34,115 bases of DNA from NCBI GenBank assembly GCA_944326725.1, contig CALVFA010000002.1:1-34115 (forward strand), written 5' to 3'. The notes beneath the pieces were generated by a model, which ran no database searches, was not told the DNA's origin, and saw only the letters and a program-made list of their open reading frames with translations. A program made the position numbers and the translations under genes. Positions 3,725-19,802 of the stretch are shown here, one piece after another (positions within the stretch are counted from its first letter, which is position 1; each line of letters begins with the position of its first letter). This DNA is from an uncultured Elusimicrobiales bacterium. Its GTDB lineage: Bacteria > Elusimicrobiota > Elusimicrobia > Elusimicrobiales > Elusimicrobiaceae.

Positions 3725-5305
3725 ATGGCAAGTGTGCACGAAGAATTGTTAGCCAGCCGCAGCAACGGTATTTTAATGCCGCTGGCGGCGATGAAAACGG
3801 AAAGTGACTGGGGCGTGGGGGATTTCTCTTCGCTAAACCAGTGGGTCCGTTTTTTGGGCGGGCTGGGAGCAAGCATAGTGCAGATTTTACCTCTGCAGGA
3901 AACCGCCCCCGGGCAGACCTGCCCGTATTCCGCTTTAAGCGCTTTTGCCATAGACCCGGTATATATTGATGTAAACGCAGTGCGGGAAGTATCTTTAAGC
4001 CGCCGCGCCCAAGAGGAAATACAAAATTTACAGGGTGATATTACCGCTTGGCGTCTAAGCCGCAAAGCTCCGTTCAATGCAGTCAAACAAGCTAAAATGA
4101 AAGTGCTTTGGCAGGCCTATCAGTTCTTTTTAGAAAATGAACTGGCCTATCAATCCCCGCAGGCCCAGGCTTTTGCTGCTTACTGCGCCGCCAAAAAAGA
4201 ATGGCTGCGCCCGTACAGCATTTTCCGCGCGCTGAAAGAATTTTACCGCTGGCAGACCTGGACGCAATGGCCGCAGGATTTGGCCTTGTTTAAAAAAGAG
4301 GCGGTAGACGCTTTTGAAGCGCAATACCGCGAATATGTGGATTTCTTTTCTTATGTGCAGTGGCAGGCTGATTTGCAGCTGCGCACCGCTAAAGTGCAGG
4401 CGCAGGCCGCCGGGGTGCATTTGTTTGGGGACATTCCGTTTGGTACCAATTTAGACAGCGCCGAAGTGTGGAGCGAGCGGGACAATTTCCGCCTGGAGTG
4501 CTCCGTCGGCGCGCCGCCAGACCAGTTTTCAAAGGACGGCCAATGCTGGGGGCTGCCTGCCTATAATTGGGAGCATATTCAAGCAGAAGGGTTTGGCCTG
4601 TGGAAGCGCAAAATCCGCCGCGCGGTGGAATTGTATGATTTGTTCCGGCTGGACCATTTAGTCGGGTTTTTCCGCACATATATTTTCAAATCAGGCGATA
4701 ACCAGGGCGGATTTGATATTTTGGTGGAGCAGCAGCAAATTGACCGCGGATACGGATTTCTGAGTATGGTGCTTGACAGTGCCCGCGGCGCTATGCCGGT
4801 GGGGGAGGATTTGGGCGTCATTCCCACTTTTGTGCGCCGTATGCTGGTGGAAATGAAAATCCCCGGGTATAAAGTGTTGCGCTGGGAGCGTGAAGATAAC
4901 GGCTATTACCGCGAACCGCGCAATTTCCCGGTGGTGTCTTTGTGCACCACTTCTACCCACGATACCGAAACCGTGCGCGGCTGGTGGGAAACCATGCCCC
5001 AGCAGGAACGGGCCAATATTTGGGAAATGATTTCCGCCCAAAAGACCGATGGCAACGTTCCGTTTAATTTAGACACTCAGCGCGCTATCTTGCGCCGGGT
5101 GCTGACTTCCGGCTCGGCCCTGACGATGTTCTCCTGGCAGGACATTATCGGCACGTTAGACCGCGTCAATGTGCCCGGTACGGTGTCTGATGAAAACTGG
5201 ACCTACCGCAGTGAATATACCCCGCAGGAAGCCGCCAGCGTGTATAAAGAGCAGCTGGACAGCTACCGCTCTTTGCTGGAAGAGACGGGCCGCTTAAAAA
5301 AATAA
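3725..5305 (+). CDS. malQ: 4-alpha-glucanotransferase (amylomaltase, GH77)
   Basis: 526 aa, the short Thermus/plant DPE1-like form rather than the ~690-aa E. coli MalQ. It transfers maltodextrin segments between alpha-1,4-glucans in the cytosol. N-terminal RSNGILMPLAAMKTESDWGVGDF and CPYSALSAFAIDPVYID are diagnostic. Catalytic residues are all present: the nucleophile Asp310 in FRLDHLVGFFR, the acid/base Glu361 in GEDLGVI, and Asp413 in STHDTETVRGWW. Ribosome binding site AAAGGAAAA. The function fits glycogen turnover together with glgA (32189) and the CBM48 protein (19347) in this window. Confidence 0.95.
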   Translation: MASVHEELLASRSNGILMPLAAMKTESDWGVGDFSSLNQWVRFLGGLGASIVQILPLQETAPGQTCPYSALSAFAIDPVYIDVNAVREVSLSRRAQEEIQNLQGDITAWRLSRKAPFNAVKQAKMKVLWQAYQFFLENELAYQSPQAQAFAAYCAAKKEWLRPYSIFRALKEFYRWQTWTQWPQDLALFKKEAVDAFEAQYREYVDFFSYVQWQADLQLRTAKVQAQAAGVHLFGDIPFGTNLDSAEVWSERDNFRLECSVGAPPDQFSKDGQCWGLPAYNWEHIQAEGFGLWKRKIRRAVELYDLFRLDHLVGFFRTYIFKSGDNQGGFDILVEQQQIDRGYGFLSMVLDSARGAMPVGEDLGVIPTFVRRMLVEMKIPGYKVLRWEREDNGYYREPRNFPVVSLCTTSTHDTETVRGWWETMPQQERANIWEMISAQKTDGNVPFNLDTQRAILRRVLTSGSALTMFSWQDIIGTLDRVNVPGTVSDENWTYRSEYTPQEAASVYKEQLDSYRSLLEETGRLKK

Positions 5306-13055: not shown

Positions 13056-13210
13056 TTTTGCAGGTGAGGATTTAGTTTGCTGTGAGAAGTGGTATTTGAT
13101 TGGCTGGTATGGGTTTTGCATGCCAAAATGCAAGAAGAGTGCCACAGCAGAGTCCAAATATGGAGAAAATTTAAATCGTCAGTTTGTTTGTTTACAACAG
13201 GAGAAAGAAT

Positions 13211-16200
13211 ATGTTTGCTTTGCTTAAAACATTTTTTAACCGTTCGTTTTTGGCTTTGTTTTGTACGCAATATTTAGGTGCGTTTAATGATAATTTCTTC
13301 CGTACTGCCATGGCTACGTTTGTGACATATAAGGTCACCACGATGTCTGCGCAGGGCAAATCGGTCATAGTGTCTTTGGCAGTGGCTTTATTTATGCTGC
13401 CGTTTTTCCTCTTCTCTGCCTTAGCCGGTGAAATGGCCGATAAATTCCGCAAAGACCTGCTTATTAAAGCTACCAAAGCGCTGGAAGTGGTGATTGCGCT
13501 GTTGGCGGGGGTGGGGTTTTTAACGGCCAATGTGCCGCTTCTGCTGGGGGTGCTTTTTTTAATGGGGGCCCAATCGGCTTTTTTCGGGCCGGTGAAATAC
13601 AGTATTTTGCCGGATATATTAGATGAAAAACAGCTGATTGCCGGCAACGGTATTATTGAAGCGGGTACCTACGGCTCTATTTTGCAGGGCACTATTTTCG
13701 GCGGGATTATCATTACGATTAATGAAATGTGGCTGCCGGGCATTATTTTAATGGTGGCCGCGGCCGGGCTGCTGAGCAGCCTGTTTATTCCGGCGCAGAA
13801 ACCGGCCAATGCCCAGTTAAAAATAGATAAAAATTTTATCCGAAGCACTTGGAAAAATATGTCTTTTGCCAAACAAAACCATAATATTTTTCTTTGTATA
13901 TTAGGTATTTCGTGGTTTTGGATGTTGGGCACGGCGCTGATTGCCCAAATGCCGTCTTTGGCGCATGATATTTTAAACGGCACGCCCGGCTTGTTTACCT
14001 TTTTGCTGACGCTGTTTTCTTGTGGTATTGGGCTGGGCTCTTTACTTTGCCAATTTTTAGTAAAAGGGGAAATTACCAGCAAATATGTGCCTATAAGCGC
14101 CCTTTTAATGACGGTGTTTTTGGCGGATTTGGCCTTTGCCGTGGCAGGCTATAGCCCCAGCGCAATGCCGGTGGACTACAAAGGGTTTTTAATGACCTTT
14201 GCAGGCAAGCGCATTACGGCGGATTTGTTGGGCTTTGCGGTGTGCGGCGGGTTGTATATTGTGCCGCTTAATTCCATGCTTCAGTTTTTGGCGGAGGGGG
14301 ACAGCCGCTCCCGCGTCATAGCCACTAACAATATTGTCAATTCCCTCTTTATGGTGTTGGGCAGCGGGCTGTGTATGCTGCTGCTTGCCATGAACTTCAG
14401 CATTGCTTGCGTCTTTGGGGTCATTGCTTTTATCAATGCGCTGGCGGCGGTTTACATTTGCGGTCTGCTGCCGCACCATATTATCCGCATGGTCATGACG
14501 CGGGTGCTCAATTTTGTATATGGCGTCAAAGTAAAGGGATTGGAACATTGGAAAAACCTGCAGGGCAATGCCTTAATTATTGCTAACCATACCTCTTTTT
14601 TGGACGCTGTTTTGCTGTGGGTGTATTTGCCGGGACATTTGTATTTTGCTATTGATACCTATGTCAGCCAAAAATGGTGGGTGCGGCCCTTTTTGCATTT
14701 GGTCAACTACTTCCCTATAGATCCGACTAGCCCCATGGCCGTCAAATCTATTATTGAAGAGGTAAAGGCCGGCAAGCGGGTGGTTATTTTTCCCGAGGGG
14801 CGTATAACGACTACGGGCGGACTAATGAAAATCTATCCCGGCCCGGCTATGATTGCTGATAAAAGTAATGCCCAATTGCTGCCTATTTGTTTGGAGGGGA
14901 GCCAATACTCCTTATTCTCCCGTTTTGGCACCCAGCTGAAAACGCGGCCCCAAAGCAAAATCACTATGACTATTTTGCCGCCCAAAAGCCTGAAACTGCC
15001 GGCGGACATAAAAGGCAAAACCCGTCGTTTGGCGGCGGCGCGGGCGCTGTATGACATTATGGTAAACATGAAGTATGAGGCGGCAGAAACGCAGGATACG
15101 CTGTTTGATTCTTTGTTAGATGCGTTTAAACTGGTGGGGCGCAGAAAAAAAATTATTAATGACGCCACCCGAAAGCCTTTGTCTTTCGGGCAGTTTTTAA
15201 CGGCGGTATTTGTGCTGGGCAAACAAATGGCCAAACACCAAAAGCCGGGTGAATTTGCCGGGTTTTTGCTGCCCAATATGACTGCCAGCGTGGTGGCTTT
15301 CTTTGGGCTGAGGGCTTTTAATATTACGCCGTGTATGCTCAATTTTTCCACCGGCGTTAAAAATATGCTTTCTTGCTGTAAAGCGGCTAACATTTCCACC
15401 GTGTTTACTTCCAGGGCGTTTTTGGAACAGGGTGGCCTGTTGGAAACGGCAGACGCACTTAAAAAAGCCGGCTTAAAGCTGGTGTATTTGGAAGATTTAA
15501 AAAAGGATATTACTCGGTGGAACAAGGCAGTTGGTTTGCTGGCCTCTTATTTCCCGCGCAGCTATTATAAACAGGTGCGCGGCAGCGTAACGCCGAAAGA
15601 CCCAGCGGTGGTTTTGTTTACCTCCGGCAGCGAAGGCGCCCCCAAAGGCGTGGTGTTAAGCCATGAAAATATCCAGGCCAACCGCTTGCAGATGCAAAGT
15701 GTGCTGGACTTTGGGCTCAAAGACCGCGTGTTCAATGCTATGCCTATTTTCCACTCGTTTGGGCTGACGGTGGGGACATTGTTGCCCTTGCTGAGCGGCG
15801 TGCCGGTGTTTTTCTATCCGTCCCCGCTGCATTACCGTATTGTGCCGGAATTGATTTATGACAGCAACGCTACCATTATTTTCGGTACGGACACCTTTTT
15901 CAACGGATATGCCAAAATGGCGCACCCATATGATTTCTACTCCGTACGTTTGGCGGTGGTGGGAGCGGAGAAATTAAAAGAGGAAACAATCCGTAAATAC
16001 TATGACCAATTTGGTCTGCGCGTTATGGAAGGGTATGGCGCTACGGAAACTTCCCCTGTTATGGCGGTCAATACTCCTATGTATTTTAGACGCGGCAGTG
16101 TGGGGCGTCTGCTGCCGGGCATGGAATACCGCTTAGAGCCGGTGCCCGGCGTGGAAGAAGGGGGCAAACTGTTGGTCAAAGGCCATAATATTATGGCAGG

Positions 16201-16621
16201 TTATTTGCGGGAAAGCAACCCCGGCGTGTTGGAGCCACCGTCAGACGGCTGGTATGATACAGGCGATATCGTGCGGGTGGACGCGGACGGCTTTATGTTT
16301 ATTTTGGGCCGCGCCAAACGCTTTGCCAAAATTGCCGGGGAGATGATTTCTTTGGCGGCAGTGGAAACGGAAATCAATATGCTTTGGCCCGGCAAAATGC
16401 ATGCGGTGGTAAATGTCCCGGATGAGAAAAAAGGAGAACAGCTTATCCTGTTTACTACGCAGCCGGACGCGCAGAGAGCGGCCCTGTTAAGTGAGTTTAA
16501 AAAGAAAGGGCTTAGCGAGCTGGCTGTGCCCAAAACCATACGCATTATGGAGGAAATACCGCTTATGGGGACCGGCAAAGTAGATTATGTGAAGCTAAAA
16601 GAGATGGCTTTAAACAGCTAA
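13211..16621 (+). CDS. LplT-PlsC-acyl-ACP synthetase fusion (Aas-type lysophospholipid transporter/acyltransferase)
   Basis: 1136 aa in three parts. Residues 1 to about 420 form an MFS transporter (LplT type) starting FALLKTFFNRSFLALFCTQYLGAFNDNFF. Residues about 440-640 are a PlsC acyltransferase with NHTSFLDAV (the HX4D box) and FPEGRITTTGG. Residues about 660-1136 are an AMP-binding acyl-ACP/acyl-CoA synthetase with FTSGSEGAPKGVVLSHEN, MEGYGATETSPV and YDTGD. Family knowledge: such proteins flip lysophospholipid inward, activate fatty acid and re-acylate it, repairing membrane lipids. In E. coli LplT and Aas are separate; here they are one chain, as in several other phyla. The ATG at 13211 has AGGAG before it. 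Confidence 0.92.
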   Translation: MFALLKTFFNRSFLALFCTQYLGAFNDNFFRTAMATFVTYKVTTMSAQGKSVIVSLAVALFMLPFFLFSALAGEMADKFRKDLLIKATKALEVVIALLAGVGFLTANVPLLLGVLFLMGAQSAFFGPVKYSILPDILDEKQLIAGNGIIEAGTYGSILQGTIFGGIIITINEMWLPGIILMVAAAGLLSSLFIPAQKPANAQLKIDKNFIRSTWKNMSFAKQNHNIFLCILGISWFWMLGTALIAQMPSLAHDILNGTPGLFTFLLTLFSCGIGLGSLLCQFLVKGEITSKYVPISALLMTVFLADLAFAVAGYSPSAMPVDYKGFLMTFAGKRITADLLGFAVCGGLYIVPLNSMLQFLAEGDSRSRVIATNNIVNSLFMVLGSGLCMLLLAMNFSIACVFGVIAFINALAAVYICGLLPHHIIRMVMTRVLNFVYGVKVKGLEHWKNLQGNALIIANHTSFLDAVLLWVYLPGHLYFAIDTYVSQKWWVRPFLHLVNYFPIDPTSPMAVKSIIEEVKAGKRVVIFPEGRITTTGGLMKIYPGPAMIADKSNAQLLPICLEGSQYSLFSRFGTQLKTRPQSKITMTILPPKSLKLPADIKGKTRRLAAARALYDIMVNMKYEAAETQDTLFDSLLDAFKLVGRRKKIINDATRKPLSFGQFLTAVFVLGKQMAKHQKPGEFAGFLLPNMTASVVAFFGLRAFNITPCMLNFSTGVKNMLSCCKAANISTVFTSRAFLEQGGLLETADALKKAGLKLVYLEDLKKDITRWNKAVGLLASYFPRSYYKQVRGSVTPKDPAVVLFTSGSEGAPKGVVLSHENIQANRLQMQSVLDFGLKDRVFNAMPIFHSFGLTVGTLLPLLSGVPVFFYPSPLHYRIVPELIYDSNATIIFGTDTFFNGYAKMAHPYDFYSVRLAVVGAEKLKEETIRKYYDQFGLRVMEGYGATETSPVMAVNTPMYFRRGSVGRLLPGMEYRLEPVPGVEEGGKLLVKGHNIMAGYLRESNPGVLEPPSDGWYDTGDIVRVDADGFMFILGRAKRFAKIAGEMISLAAVETEINMLWPGKMHAVVNVPDEKKGEQLILFTTQPDAQRAALLSEFKKKGLSELAVPKTIRIMEEIPLMGTGKVDYVKLKEMALNS

Positions 16622-16776: not shown

Positions 16777-16854
16777 GGAGCAAAATGTATAACAGCCCGA
16801 CAGAAAAACCGTCCAAACCCCTTTCTTTCCTGGAAAAAGGGCTATATAAAGAAA

Positions 16855-16941
16855 CGGAAGGGGAGGGATTCGAACCCTCGGTGGAGTTGCCCCCACATCA
16901 GTTTTCAAGACTGACGCCTTAAACCACTCGGCCACCCTTCC
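16855..16941 (-). tRNA. tRNA-Ser (UGA)
   Basis: 87 nt with the long variable arm of class II tRNAs. Acceptor GGAAGGG/CCCTTCC, anticodon stem TCAGT/ACTGA with loop CTTGAAA (anticodon TGA), T arm GAGGGTTCGAATCCCTC, discriminator G. CCA is not encoded. Confidence 0.95.
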
Positions 16942-17105
16942 AATACTTTTATTTTATTAATTTTACCGGTACTTGGGGAAGTATTTTGAGATATCGCAAA
17001 TGATAAACAATATAAAAACAGGGGAGGAAACTATTTGCTGAAATATAATATAAAAAGGTAATAATTTTTTGCTAAATAAATTGTACCAGAGAGAAAGATT
17101 TGTGC

Positions 17106-17170: not shown

Positions 17171-17199
17171 GGGTGAATTAAACCAAAAGGATATGTAAT

Positions 17200-17832
17200 A
17201 TGAATAAAAAGATAGGAACCCTGGCGTTTCTAGTTTGTTTAATTGCCTCTGTTTTTACAGGCTTGTGGGCGCAAACAGATTCCCCTGTTGAACGCAAAGT
17301 AGTGGTGCAAGCCTGGGGTACGAGTGCCCGAATTTCCGCTTGGGAAAAACGTGGGGACCAGTGGGAAGAAGTGTTCCGCGCCAAAGAAGGCTATGTGGGC
17401 CGCAACGGTGTAACGGATCAGAAAATGGAAGGAGATGGATGCACCCCGGTTGGAGAGTTTGAGGTGCGCCGCGCTTTCGGCATTGCCCCGGCTCCAAAAA
17501 CGGCTTTGCCTTATACCCAGGTACAAGAAGGAGATGAATGGGTGGATGATTCTTCTTCCAAATATTATAACCAATATGTGAAGGCGGGCAGCGTAGATAA
17601 AGACTGGTTCTCCTCTGAAAAGCTAATTACTGAAGACGTAGCCTACCAATATGCTCTGGTGGTGGAATATAATACTGATCCGGCTGTTCCTGGCAGAGGC
17701 TCTGCTATTTTCTTCCACTGTTCCTTAAACCGTCCGACTTCTGGCTGTGTCAGCACACCGCAGGACGACATGATTAAATTCTTAGAATTTTTGCGCCCGG
17801 GAGATAAAATCATCATTGAGGAAGCTAAATAA
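17200..17832 (+). CDS. L,D-transpeptidase (YkuD / COG3786-like), active-site residues present
   Basis: 210 aa. Residues 1-24 are a signal peptide ending in LWAQ. The mature part contains GYVGRNGVTDQKMEGDGCTP (residues about 65-85), the region of the family that reads 'G.nG...K.EGDG.TP.G.f', and the catalytic motif at the end: GSAIFFH (His173) ... PTSGCVSTP (Cys183). This short His-to-Cys spacing is typical of the COG3786 branch rather than of E. coli YbiS. By family the enzyme forms 3-3 peptidoglycan cross-links or attaches proteins, in the periplasm. A ribosome binding site AAAGGAT is present. A paralogue follows after 26 nt. Confidence 0.82.
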   Translation: MNKKIGTLAFLVCLIASVFTGLWAQTDSPVERKVVVQAWGTSARISAWEKRGDQWEEVFRAKEGYVGRNGVTDQKMEGDGCTPVGEFEVRRAFGIAPAPKTALPYTQVQEGDEWVDDSSSKYYNQYVKAGSVDKDWFSSEKLITEDVAYQYALVVEYNTDPAVPGRGSAIFFHCSLNRPTSGCVSTPQDDMIKFLEFLRPGDKIIIEEAK

Positions 17833-17858
17833 AATTAGCGCACCGGCAGGAGCCCGCG

Positions 17859-18509
17859 ATGAGTAAAAGCATGATGTTTAGTATAAAAAGAATCATCTTT
17901 TGGCTTTGCCTGCTCTGTGTGGTTGTTGTTATATTGTTTTTGGTTCACAGGGAGCCGGTATCAGAGCGTAAAGTAGTGGTAGAGGCCCGAGGGCAGAGGG
18001 CTTCGGTGTCTGCTTGGCAGCGGCGGGGGGACAAATGGACCGAAGTGTTTCGCACGGATGACGGCTATGTGGGCCGAAATGGTGTGACTGAAAATAAAGT
18101 GGAAGGGGACCAGGCCGTTCCTATTGGGGAATTTGAGTTGCGCCGCGCGTTTGGCGTGGTGGACAACCCGGATACCAATTTGGCCTATACCCGCATTAAA
18201 GTGGATGACGTTTGGGTAGATGACCCGGACTCTAAATATTATAATCAGTACATTCACAGCGGCTCTGGCATAAAACGGGATTGGAAAACAGCGGAAGAGC
18301 TTTCCCGCCTGGATATGGCATATAAATACGCCATTGTGGTGGAATATAATACAAACCCGGTTATTCCCGGCAAAGGTTCTGCCATTTTCTTTAATCTCTC
18401 TAATGACCATGCCACCGGCGGGGATATTGCTGTACCGGAAAAATACCTCAAACGCTTCCTGAAGTTTGTACAGCCTGGAGATAAGATAGTCATCAAACGG
18501 GCTGAGTAG
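17859..18509 (+). CDS. L,D-transpeptidase paralogue lacking the catalytic His and Cys (predicted pseudoenzyme)
   Basis: 216 aa, colinear with the gene just upstream and about half identical by eye over the whole mature region (GYVGRNGVTENKVEGD, SKYYNQY, YAIVVEYNTNPVIPG). The N-terminus differs: it is an uncleaved-looking membrane anchor (residues about 8-29) rather than a signal peptide. At the active site FFHCSLNRPTSGCVSTP of the paralogue becomes FFNLSNDHATGGDIAVP, so His is Asn179 and Cys is Asp189. The fold-forming residues around them are kept, and the frame is intact with a good ribosome binding site (GCAGGAG), so it is not simply a decaying gene. A membrane-tethered peptidoglycan-binding or regulatory role for its partner is an inference. 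Confidence 0.78.
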   Translation: MSKSMMFSIKRIIFWLCLLCVVVVILFLVHREPVSERKVVVEARGQRASVSAWQRRGDKWTEVFRTDDGYVGRNGVTENKVEGDQAVPIGEFELRRAFGVVDNPDTNLAYTRIKVDDVWVDDPDSKYYNQYIHSGSGIKRDWKTAEELSRLDMAYKYAIVVEYNTNPVIPGKGSAIFFNLSNDHATGGDIAVPEKYLKRFLKFVQPGDKIVIKRAE

Positions 18510-18523
18510 GAAATATCTTCTTT

Positions 18524-18553
18524 AAAAATCCCCCCGATAGGGGGATTTTTTTT
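18524..18553 (+). terminator. Rho-independent terminator of the L,D-transpeptidase pair
   Basis: AAAATCCCCC/GGGGGATTTT with a CGATA loop and a T run. Confidence 0.92.
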
Positions 18554-18715: not shown

Positions 18716-19357
18716 ATGAATGAGCCAACCATTGTATACCGTTTCAAAAACGGTTTGTATATTAATTTAACCAACCGCTGTCCCAATCTGTGTGCTTTTT
18801 GTATTAAAACAAAATGGCATATGCAGTTTGACGGGCATAATTTGGATTTGCAGGGACAGGAGCCCACGGTGCAAGAGGTGCTGGCTTTGTTAGATAAAGA
18901 GCTTCGTGCCGCACCTGTACAAGAAGTGGTGTTCTGCGGATATGGGGAGCCTACCATGCGCTTAGACGCTGTACTGGCTATAGGCCGGGCGTTGAAGCAA
19001 GCCCAGGCGCAGGGTAAATATCCCGCTTTTAAAATCCGTCTTAATACCAACGGGCTGGGCAATTTAATCAACCACTGTGACATTGTGCCTCAGCTGCGCA
19101 GCGCGGTAGATGTGGTGTATGTCAGTTTAAACGCGCAAAACGAAGAATTGTGGCGCAAACTGCTGCGCCCGGCGCCGGGGTATGAAAACGGCTTTGCGTC
19201 GGTATTAGAGTTTTTAAAAGGCTGCGCCAGTGCCGGTTTTGACCGGGTGGCCGCCAGCTGTGTGGAGAATACCGGAGCCGACCCTGCCGCTGTGCGTGCG
19301 TTGGCGGCGTCCTGCGGGGCTGATTTTAATGAGCGGGAGTATTTAAATGAACAGTAA
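18716..19357 (+). CDS. Radical SAM protein, TatD-associated type
   Basis: 213 aa. The 4Fe-4S motif is CPNLCAFC (CxxxCxxC, residues about 22-29) in the context YINLTNRCPNLCAFC, followed by FCGYGEPTMRL (the GGE-type SAM site) and IRLNTNGLGN. The small size and this N-terminus match the TatD-linked radical SAM family (TIGR04038-like), whose reaction is unknown. No tatD gene is in the window. The stop overlaps the start of the next gene by 11 nt, so it is the first gene of the long operon that contains tsaE-tsaB-rimI. Confidence 0.82.
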   Translation: MNEPTIVYRFKNGLYINLTNRCPNLCAFCIKTKWHMQFDGHNLDLQGQEPTVQEVLALLDKELRAAPVQEVVFCGYGEPTMRLDAVLAIGRALKQAQAQGKYPAFKIRLNTNGLGNLINHCDIVPQLRSAVDVVYVSLNAQNEELWRKLLRPAPGYENGFASVLEFLKGCASAGFDRVAASCVENTGADPAAVRALAASCGADFNEREYLNEQ

Positions 19358-19802
19358 AAAACCCGGCGCGCTGTTTGTACTGTTTTTATTGTTGATGTGT
19401 GCTGCGCTGACTTGGTTTTTCACCGCGGGGGAAGATTATTACGACTATACTTCCGGCACGGTGGAAGGGGCGGCACAGACGGTCCCGCTGGAAAAAGACG
19501 ACTTGTCTGCCTTAACCAAAAAGCCCAAAGAGAAATTTAACACAGAAATTAAATTCCGCAATTTTTTTCTCACCGCTCCCAATGCCCAGCAAGTGGAATT
19601 GCAGGCGGATTTCAATGGCTGGGGCAAAACCCCGATTAAACTGAAAAAATATGCACGCGGTTATTTTGAAACGTCGCTGGCCTTGCCCGCCGGGGAATAC
19701 AAATATGTGTTTGTGGCCGATGGCAAAGACGTGCTGGACCCAACCAATATGGACCGCGTGGAGGAAAACGGCCGTACCGTATGCATAAAAACAATCCGAT
19801 GA
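19347..19802 (+). CDS. Membrane-anchored glycogen-binding (CBM48 / AMPK-beta-like) protein
   Basis: 151 aa. Residues 7-27 form a single membrane segment (ALFVLFLLLMCAALTWFF). A spacer of about 40 charged residues leads to a C-terminal CBM48-like domain (about residues 70-150) with VELQADFNGWGKTPIKL, GYFETSLALPAGEYKYVFVADG and DPTN, closely following the AMPK-beta glycogen-binding module ('v.l.GsFN.W....pl......f...l.LppG.y.YkF.vDG....Dp.n'). No catalytic domain is attached. It probably holds a glucan, or binds one, at the membrane; which face is not clear. It overlaps the radical SAM gene and the tsaE gene (ATGA). Confidence 0.8.
   Translation: MNSKKPGALFVLFLLLMCAALTWFFTAGEDYYDYTSGTVEGAAQTVPLEKDDLSALTKKPKEKFNTEIKFRNFFLTAPNAQQVELQADFNGWGKTPIKLKKYARGYFETSLALPAGEYKYVFVADGKDVLDPTNMDRVEENGRTVCIKTIR

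Follow-up and report, generated by a model that had tools for sequence, protein, structure and literature searches.

The tandem pair

The window analyzed here, a stretch of 34,115 nucleotides placed by its named relatives in or beside Candidatus Avelusimicrobium (phylum Elusimicrobiota), carries on its forward strand two tandem homologs of YkuD-type L,D-transpeptidases. The first, here termed the C copy (17200–17832), follows a ribosome-binding-like AAGGA read from the sequence at 17187–17191 and encodes a 210-aa protein with the catalytic residues His173 (CAC, 17716–17718) and Cys183 (TGT, 17746–17748). By eye it begins with a Sec-type signal peptide (17200–17271), a hydrophobic stretch ending in TGLWA, after which cleavage before Q would be expected. 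The second, the D copy (17859–18509), encodes a predicted YkuD-type pseudoenzyme of 216 aa in which Asn179 (AAT, 18393–18395) occupies the catalytic His position and Asp189 (GAT, 18423–18425) that of the catalytic Cys. A hairpin and T run resembling an intrinsic terminator (18524–18550, forward strand; fold -15.6 kcal/mol, z -2.73) would end the two-gene unit.

A first-pass annotation of this DNA had described a colinear tandem pair whose second gene retained an intact frame and ribosome binding site, and both descriptions are borne out. The two frames (210 and 216 codons) are open and separated by 26 bases, their products align end to end with 51% identity over 212 columns (E 4e-77), and the D copy is preceded by a ribosome-binding-like AGGAG, again read from the sequence, at 17848–17852. 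These are the sole YkuD genes found in the window's genome, which is 85% complete.

Distribution and genomic site

The pair occurs in four of 66 genomes of the genus, always with both copies and in the order C then D: the window's own (G000), G078 (locus L009, CALUVB010000003.1), G001 (locus L010, Ca. A. excrementipullorum) and G012. Another four genus genomes have a YkuD match of a different, classical type and the remaining 58 have none. Since 62 of the 66 genomes do without it, the pair is dispensable. Across the phylum, a profile built from the eight pair sequences matched 23 of 340 genomes, comprising the four pairs, 18 single copies and one probably spurious partial match, which was not counted (in G083, where it covers only a short N-terminal part of a 287-aa frame that looks unrelated). 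The same profile found no relatives of the pair in 129 stretches of viral contigs. A pattern scan of genome contigs returned two loci, both within the four pair-bearing genomes; its patterns were drawn from the window D copy alone, so that distant relatives would be missed. The available sequences point to a genuine, selected pseudo-L,D-transpeptidase beside a presumably active paralog, limited to a few species of gut bacteria. Among the more distant YkuD proteins, the same-class relative L030 has its YkuD domain fused behind a D-Ala-D-Ala dipeptidase (Peptidase_M15) domain, as confirmed by Pfam, and L025, L033 and L035 resemble such Peptidase_M15-YkuD fusions by eye.

Three of the four pairs, those of the window, G078 and G001, share one site, bordered on the left by a tRNA-Ser(TGA) gene (16854–16942, reverse strand, in the window) and on the right by a radical SAM gene (18716–19357, forward strand). 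Four close relatives that lack the pair (G015, G086, G087 and G079) have a short gap between these two genes. The radical SAM gene itself was matched at E <= 0.001 in 58 of the 66 genus genomes, weakly so in one of these. In G012 the pair adjoins DUF2207-like and MAQIKYG-type genes, identified by eye; a MAHIKYG-type gene also lies next to the site in G001, G015 and G079, and a DUF2207-like gene in G001. The empty site in the four relatives could suggest a recent mobile insertion, a reading disfavored by the neighbors of the pair in G012, by the lack of any integrase noticed and by the division of the sequences into C and D groups, which fits an old duplication. A tree of two neighboring genes, used to represent the species (25 of 30 genomes, with sequences obtained by pattern-based extraction) did not group the pair-bearing species and required four changes for the pair, with weak support. 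The neighbors of G012, the missing integrase and a single old duplication together favor an old presence followed by several losses; repeated loss from a common ancestor is the history that we prefer for the pair, transfer within the genus being the less likely alternative.

Several other genes of the window were also noted. The radical SAM gene, itself short, overlaps a gene (19347–19802) for a small protein that is anchored in the membrane and has a CBM48-like, glycogen-binding domain, and the two form a conserved neighbor pair in the genus. A 4-alpha-glucanotransferase (GH77) gene lies at 3725–5305, which, together with the CBM48-like protein, hints at glycogen metabolism. At 13184–16621, a single frame of 1145 aa looks, by eye, as if it combined a lysophospholipid transporter, an acyltransferase and an acyl-ACP synthetase in one protein.

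Replacement of the catalytic dyad

The replacements reported by the first-pass annotation, His173/Cys183 in the first copy to Asn179/Asp189 in the second, proved exact in their numbering when the codons were read in the window, and they extend to the relatives. His and Cys are present in each of the four C copies, and at the corresponding positions each of the four D copies has Asn and Asp; a second copy with His/Cys, one of the results that the first-pass annotation had named as refuting its reading, was found in none of the three other species. The codons vary among the four species, with AAT in three and AAC in one for the Asn, and GAT in three and GAC in one for the Asp. In an outgroup of 16 single copies from the phylum and five of 51 matching plasmid records, the His is found in all 21 sequences and the Cys in 20 of them. 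The phylum sequences were 16 of the 18 single-copy matches, L026 and L039 being omitted since their contigs end before the Cys. The outgroup indicates that His and Cys are ancestral and that both were changed in the D lineage.

Sixty-two alignment columns are invariant within both groups, and 58 of these are identical between C and D. C and D differ at the other four, Gly111/Asp116, His173/Asn179, Cys183/Asp189 and Leu198/Val204 (C/D), so that both catalytic positions fall among them, with a chance of 0.003 under a simple random draw. Residues near the active site (GSAIF, T.G., YNQ and EYNT) are mostly common to the two groups. Elsewhere in the phylum, the single-copy gene L038 (G175) encodes a YkuD-like domain that keeps the His and reads TERGTAF around the site of the catalytic Cys, with Gly in its place, which may represent either a separate loss of the nucleophile or a sequencing fault; as it lacks the Cys and retains the His, it would indicate that loss of Cys alone has happened elsewhere too. 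L038 also belongs with the Peptidase_M15-YkuD fusions described above, but by Pfam only its Peptidase_M15 and VanY matches pass.

Selection and duplication history

Loss of a catalytic dyad may mark a gene in decay, or an artefact of assembly or sequencing, and this reading would be in keeping with the sub-threshold Pfam scores of the window and G078 D copies (see below) and with the patchy distribution of the pair. We consider it hardly credible, as the D copy is intact in four species from separate genomes, shows synonymous changes at the dyad codons and is more conserved than the active copy. Between species, D copies share 57.5–75.6% identity and C copies 51.9–67.6%, the D value being the higher in all six species pairs. 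Nonsynonymous divergence (dN) is lower for D than for C in six of six pairs by the NG86 method and in five of six by maximum likelihood, the D value being higher in the other. Estimates of dN/dS for the D copies are 0.07–0.19 by NG86 (the five of six pairs where defined; across both copies dS was undefined in three of 12) and 0.02–0.08 by maximum likelihood (six pairs); these values are rough, since fourfold sites differ by 52–69% and dS is saturated.

Neutral evolution simulated at the observed fourfold-site divergence left a mean amino-acid identity of 16%; in none of 2000 runs did all four reading frames stay open, and in none were both Asn and Asp retained. Purifying selection is shown for both copies. 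Such selection, with the Asn and Asp fixed, is what the first-pass annotation had proposed to look for: dN/dS lies far below 1 despite the saturated dS, both residues are fixed in the four species, and the random decay that it had named as the opposing outcome is not seen. The Asn and Asp of the relatives, the constraint and the low dN/dS exclude decay and assembly error, and a pseudogene, frameshift or assembly error was accordingly rejected on the strength of the three further species and the constraint. That the D copy is a pseudoenzyme under selection is, as read from the sequences, well supported.

In a maximum-likelihood tree with 11 of the 18 single-copy phylum sequences as outgroup, one branch splits the C group from the D group (support 92/88), which fits one duplication preceding the separation of the four species. 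The branch orders within the two groups are not identical, and several of the supports are low.

Fold and active site

The C copy scores 43.4 bits against YkuD (PF03734), above the Pfam cut-off of 23.4, and the window D copy falls just under it at 20.8 bits. Among the D copies of relatives, those of G012 (31.2 bits) and G001 (29.1 bits) pass and that of G078 is below the cut-off. A search of NCBIfam gave no useful family for the pair, and sequence searches of the PDB yielded no match with a single protein and, with the profile of the pair sequences, only weak matches to Pgp2 (E 0.016). AlphaFold models built on six-sequence alignments reached a mean pLDDT of 76.1 for the D copy and 74.2 for the C copy; the loop preceding the catalytic His position is below 50 and the loops beside the active site are weak. 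The best solved-structure match of the D-copy model by Foldseek is Csd6/Pgp2 (E 1.2e-4), and its alignment with Csd6 (4xzz) covers 126 residues at 2.9 Å with a Z of 12.4. Many YkuD structures match this model at Z 10–12, entries within about one Z unit being tied. Pgp2 is likewise the best structure match of the C-copy model. On the evidence of these models, the D copy keeps the YkuD fold.

A retained fold with both replaced residues strictly kept raises the question of whether the Asn/Asp pair constitutes a new active site, the D copy having remained an enzyme whose chemistry is altered. The replacements are chemically specific and present in four of four species, where a merely emptied site might drift, and the change of Gly111 to Asp116 is a third group-specific substitution. 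The YkuD superfamily is also catalytically plastic: a YafK protein hydrolyzes beta-lactam via a serine outside the Cys site (PMC13400389). Against this, no YkuD protein was seen in the literature surveyed in which an Asp serves as nucleophile unaided by a general base, and the models are locally too weak to judge geometry. We regard a new active site as quite improbable, and its more specific form, in which the Asn-Asp pair would be a re-made YkuD-fold site acting, by chemistry undescribed for the family, on the stem peptides that the twin also uses, as more improbable still.

Membrane attachment

The four C copies begin, by eye, with ordinary cleavable-looking signal peptides. The window D copy begins instead with a long hydrophobic helix (residues 12–29, 17892–17945), whose mean hydropathy of 3.47 is the highest among the eight sequences, and it has no lipobox. 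The D copies of G001 and G012 match a lipobox pattern, and in that of G078 the equivalent position also holds a Cys, whose surroundings fit the pattern poorly; a signal peptidase II gene is present in the genome. With Cys at the helix end in all three relatives, the window helix is the exception among the four. The first-pass annotation, which saw a membrane anchor in place of the signal peptide, was therefore right about the window D copy, but the helix is specific to the window and does not describe the lineage. The theme common to the four is attachment to the membrane by lipid or helix, and what can most safely be said of the D lineage is that it carries a membrane-attachment segment of changing kind.

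An anchored protein with an intact fold could act alone, as a tether between membrane and wall, if its emptied cleft bound stem peptides without cutting them and thereby gripped the sacculus. Membrane attachment with fold and cleft residues retained is what such a role would need, and a lysA-like gene in the window fits a diaminopimelate wall. The dyad mutants C174S and H157A of Pgp2, on the other hand, bound peptidoglycan minimally (PMC8038945), which argues against a tether of this kind. Moreover, an uncleaved-looking helix lacking a lipobox makes an outer-membrane tether inapplicable to the window D copy, and a lone tether does not account for the invariable presence of a C copy next to it. 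We consider a stand-alone tether possible, if unlikely.

A proposed role for the pair

The retained fold and cleft residues, the replaced dyad, the membrane attachment and the constant presence of a soluble catalytic twin are best fitted by a D copy that arose by duplication and serves the soluble C copy as a non-catalytic partner held at the membrane, a reading to which we assign a probability of roughly 0.5. A gene for an L,D-transpeptidase would have duplicated to give the pair, the first protein remaining a secreted and presumably active enzyme, and the second becoming a membrane-attached pseudoenzyme that preserved the fold and, in large part, the conserved sequence of the cleft, with Asn and Asp for His and Cys. 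Presumably deprived of thiol chemistry, the D copy might bind the C copy, the same peptidoglycan stem peptide or both, and so either retain the soluble enzyme at the membrane face or act as a switch on its activity. Such control may be likened to that exerted by inactive LytM proteins on cell-wall hydrolases. The suggestion of the first-pass annotation, a tethered partner that may position or inhibit the active copy, is compatible with all of the observations. The steps beyond a selected pseudoenzyme are ones that we infer. Adjacent genes travel together, so the co-occurrence of C and D in four of four genomes is weak evidence of physical partnership, and the variation in attachment (a helix in the window, probably lipid in two relatives and unclear in one) fits general tethering and not one fixed geometry. 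L,D-transpeptidase activity of the C copy is itself presumed, carboxypeptidase or amidase activity being equally possible.

The D copy might instead be an inhibitor or antitoxin-like guard, either by blocking its neighbor, the C copy, or by acting as a sink for beta-lactams or for foreign effectors of L,D-transpeptidase type. The two-gene unit with its terminator and the retained fold are compatible with this, and an interaction surface could conceivably derive from an ancestral homodimer, but the C copy is not known to form homodimers. Covalent capture of beta-lactams by YkuD enzymes uses the Cys that is missing here (PMC12729407), and nothing in the neighborhood of the pair suggests secretion systems or resistance. 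A guard function thus appears improbable. Should the D copy prove to be a membrane-held partner that controls its active twin, it would mean that L,D-crosslinking or trimming enzymes can own built-in non-catalytic partners, and the pair would offer a small two-gene system for testing enzyme placement at the membrane. A dyad that was swapped and then kept suggests that the job of the twin is other than the usual catalysis.

Comparison with known systems

Both copies share the domain of the YkuD L,D-transpeptidases (PF03734), and the C copy also their fold, length and C-terminal motif. The pair differs from them in its D copy, where the catalytic Cys and His are missing, and in the motif, which is T.GC here and lacks the Arg of the classical SxGC-phi-R (PMC12729407). 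The closest sequences outside the phylum, among plasmid records, are single-copy L,D-transpeptidase-family proteins of Bacillota and Actinomycetota with at most 37% identity; unlike the D copy, these have His and Cys in all five read of the 51 records. The L,D-carboxypeptidases Csd6 and Pgp2 of Helicobacter and Campylobacter, the best solved-structure matches, share only the fold: the pair lacks the NTF2 domain that follows their YkuD domain (a Pfam scan of the pair found no NTF2-type domain, the proteins stopping at YkuD), and the D copy lacks the dyad. LDTGo, a 1,3-L,D-transpeptidase, is YkuD-like with a lipobox, but it is active, larger and equipped with a self-inhibiting belt segment (PMC10864386); its structure matches the C-copy model weakly.

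That proteins of this kind can have non-enzymatic roles is supported by LdtJ, an L,D-transpeptidase of A. baumannii with a role that survives mutation of the Cys or deletion of the YkuD domain (PMC12548408). The YkuD proteins called catalytically inactive in the excerpts surveyed are engineered mutants (PMC12548408, PMC8038945), and our search of paper listings and abstracts, with excerpts of the papers cited here, found no description of a natural, conserved inactive L,D-transpeptidase, an absence that is not proof. The natural inactive protein named in the excerpts is of the LytM type, DipM, a member of the catalytically inactive LytM proteins that control cell-wall hydrolases. Like these, the D copy would be an envelope pseudoenzyme derived from the fold of a cell-wall enzyme, a resemblance of role only. 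The folds are unrelated (no M23/LytM domain was found in the Pfam scan of the pair), and the presumed target here would be the pseudoenzyme's own tandem paralog.
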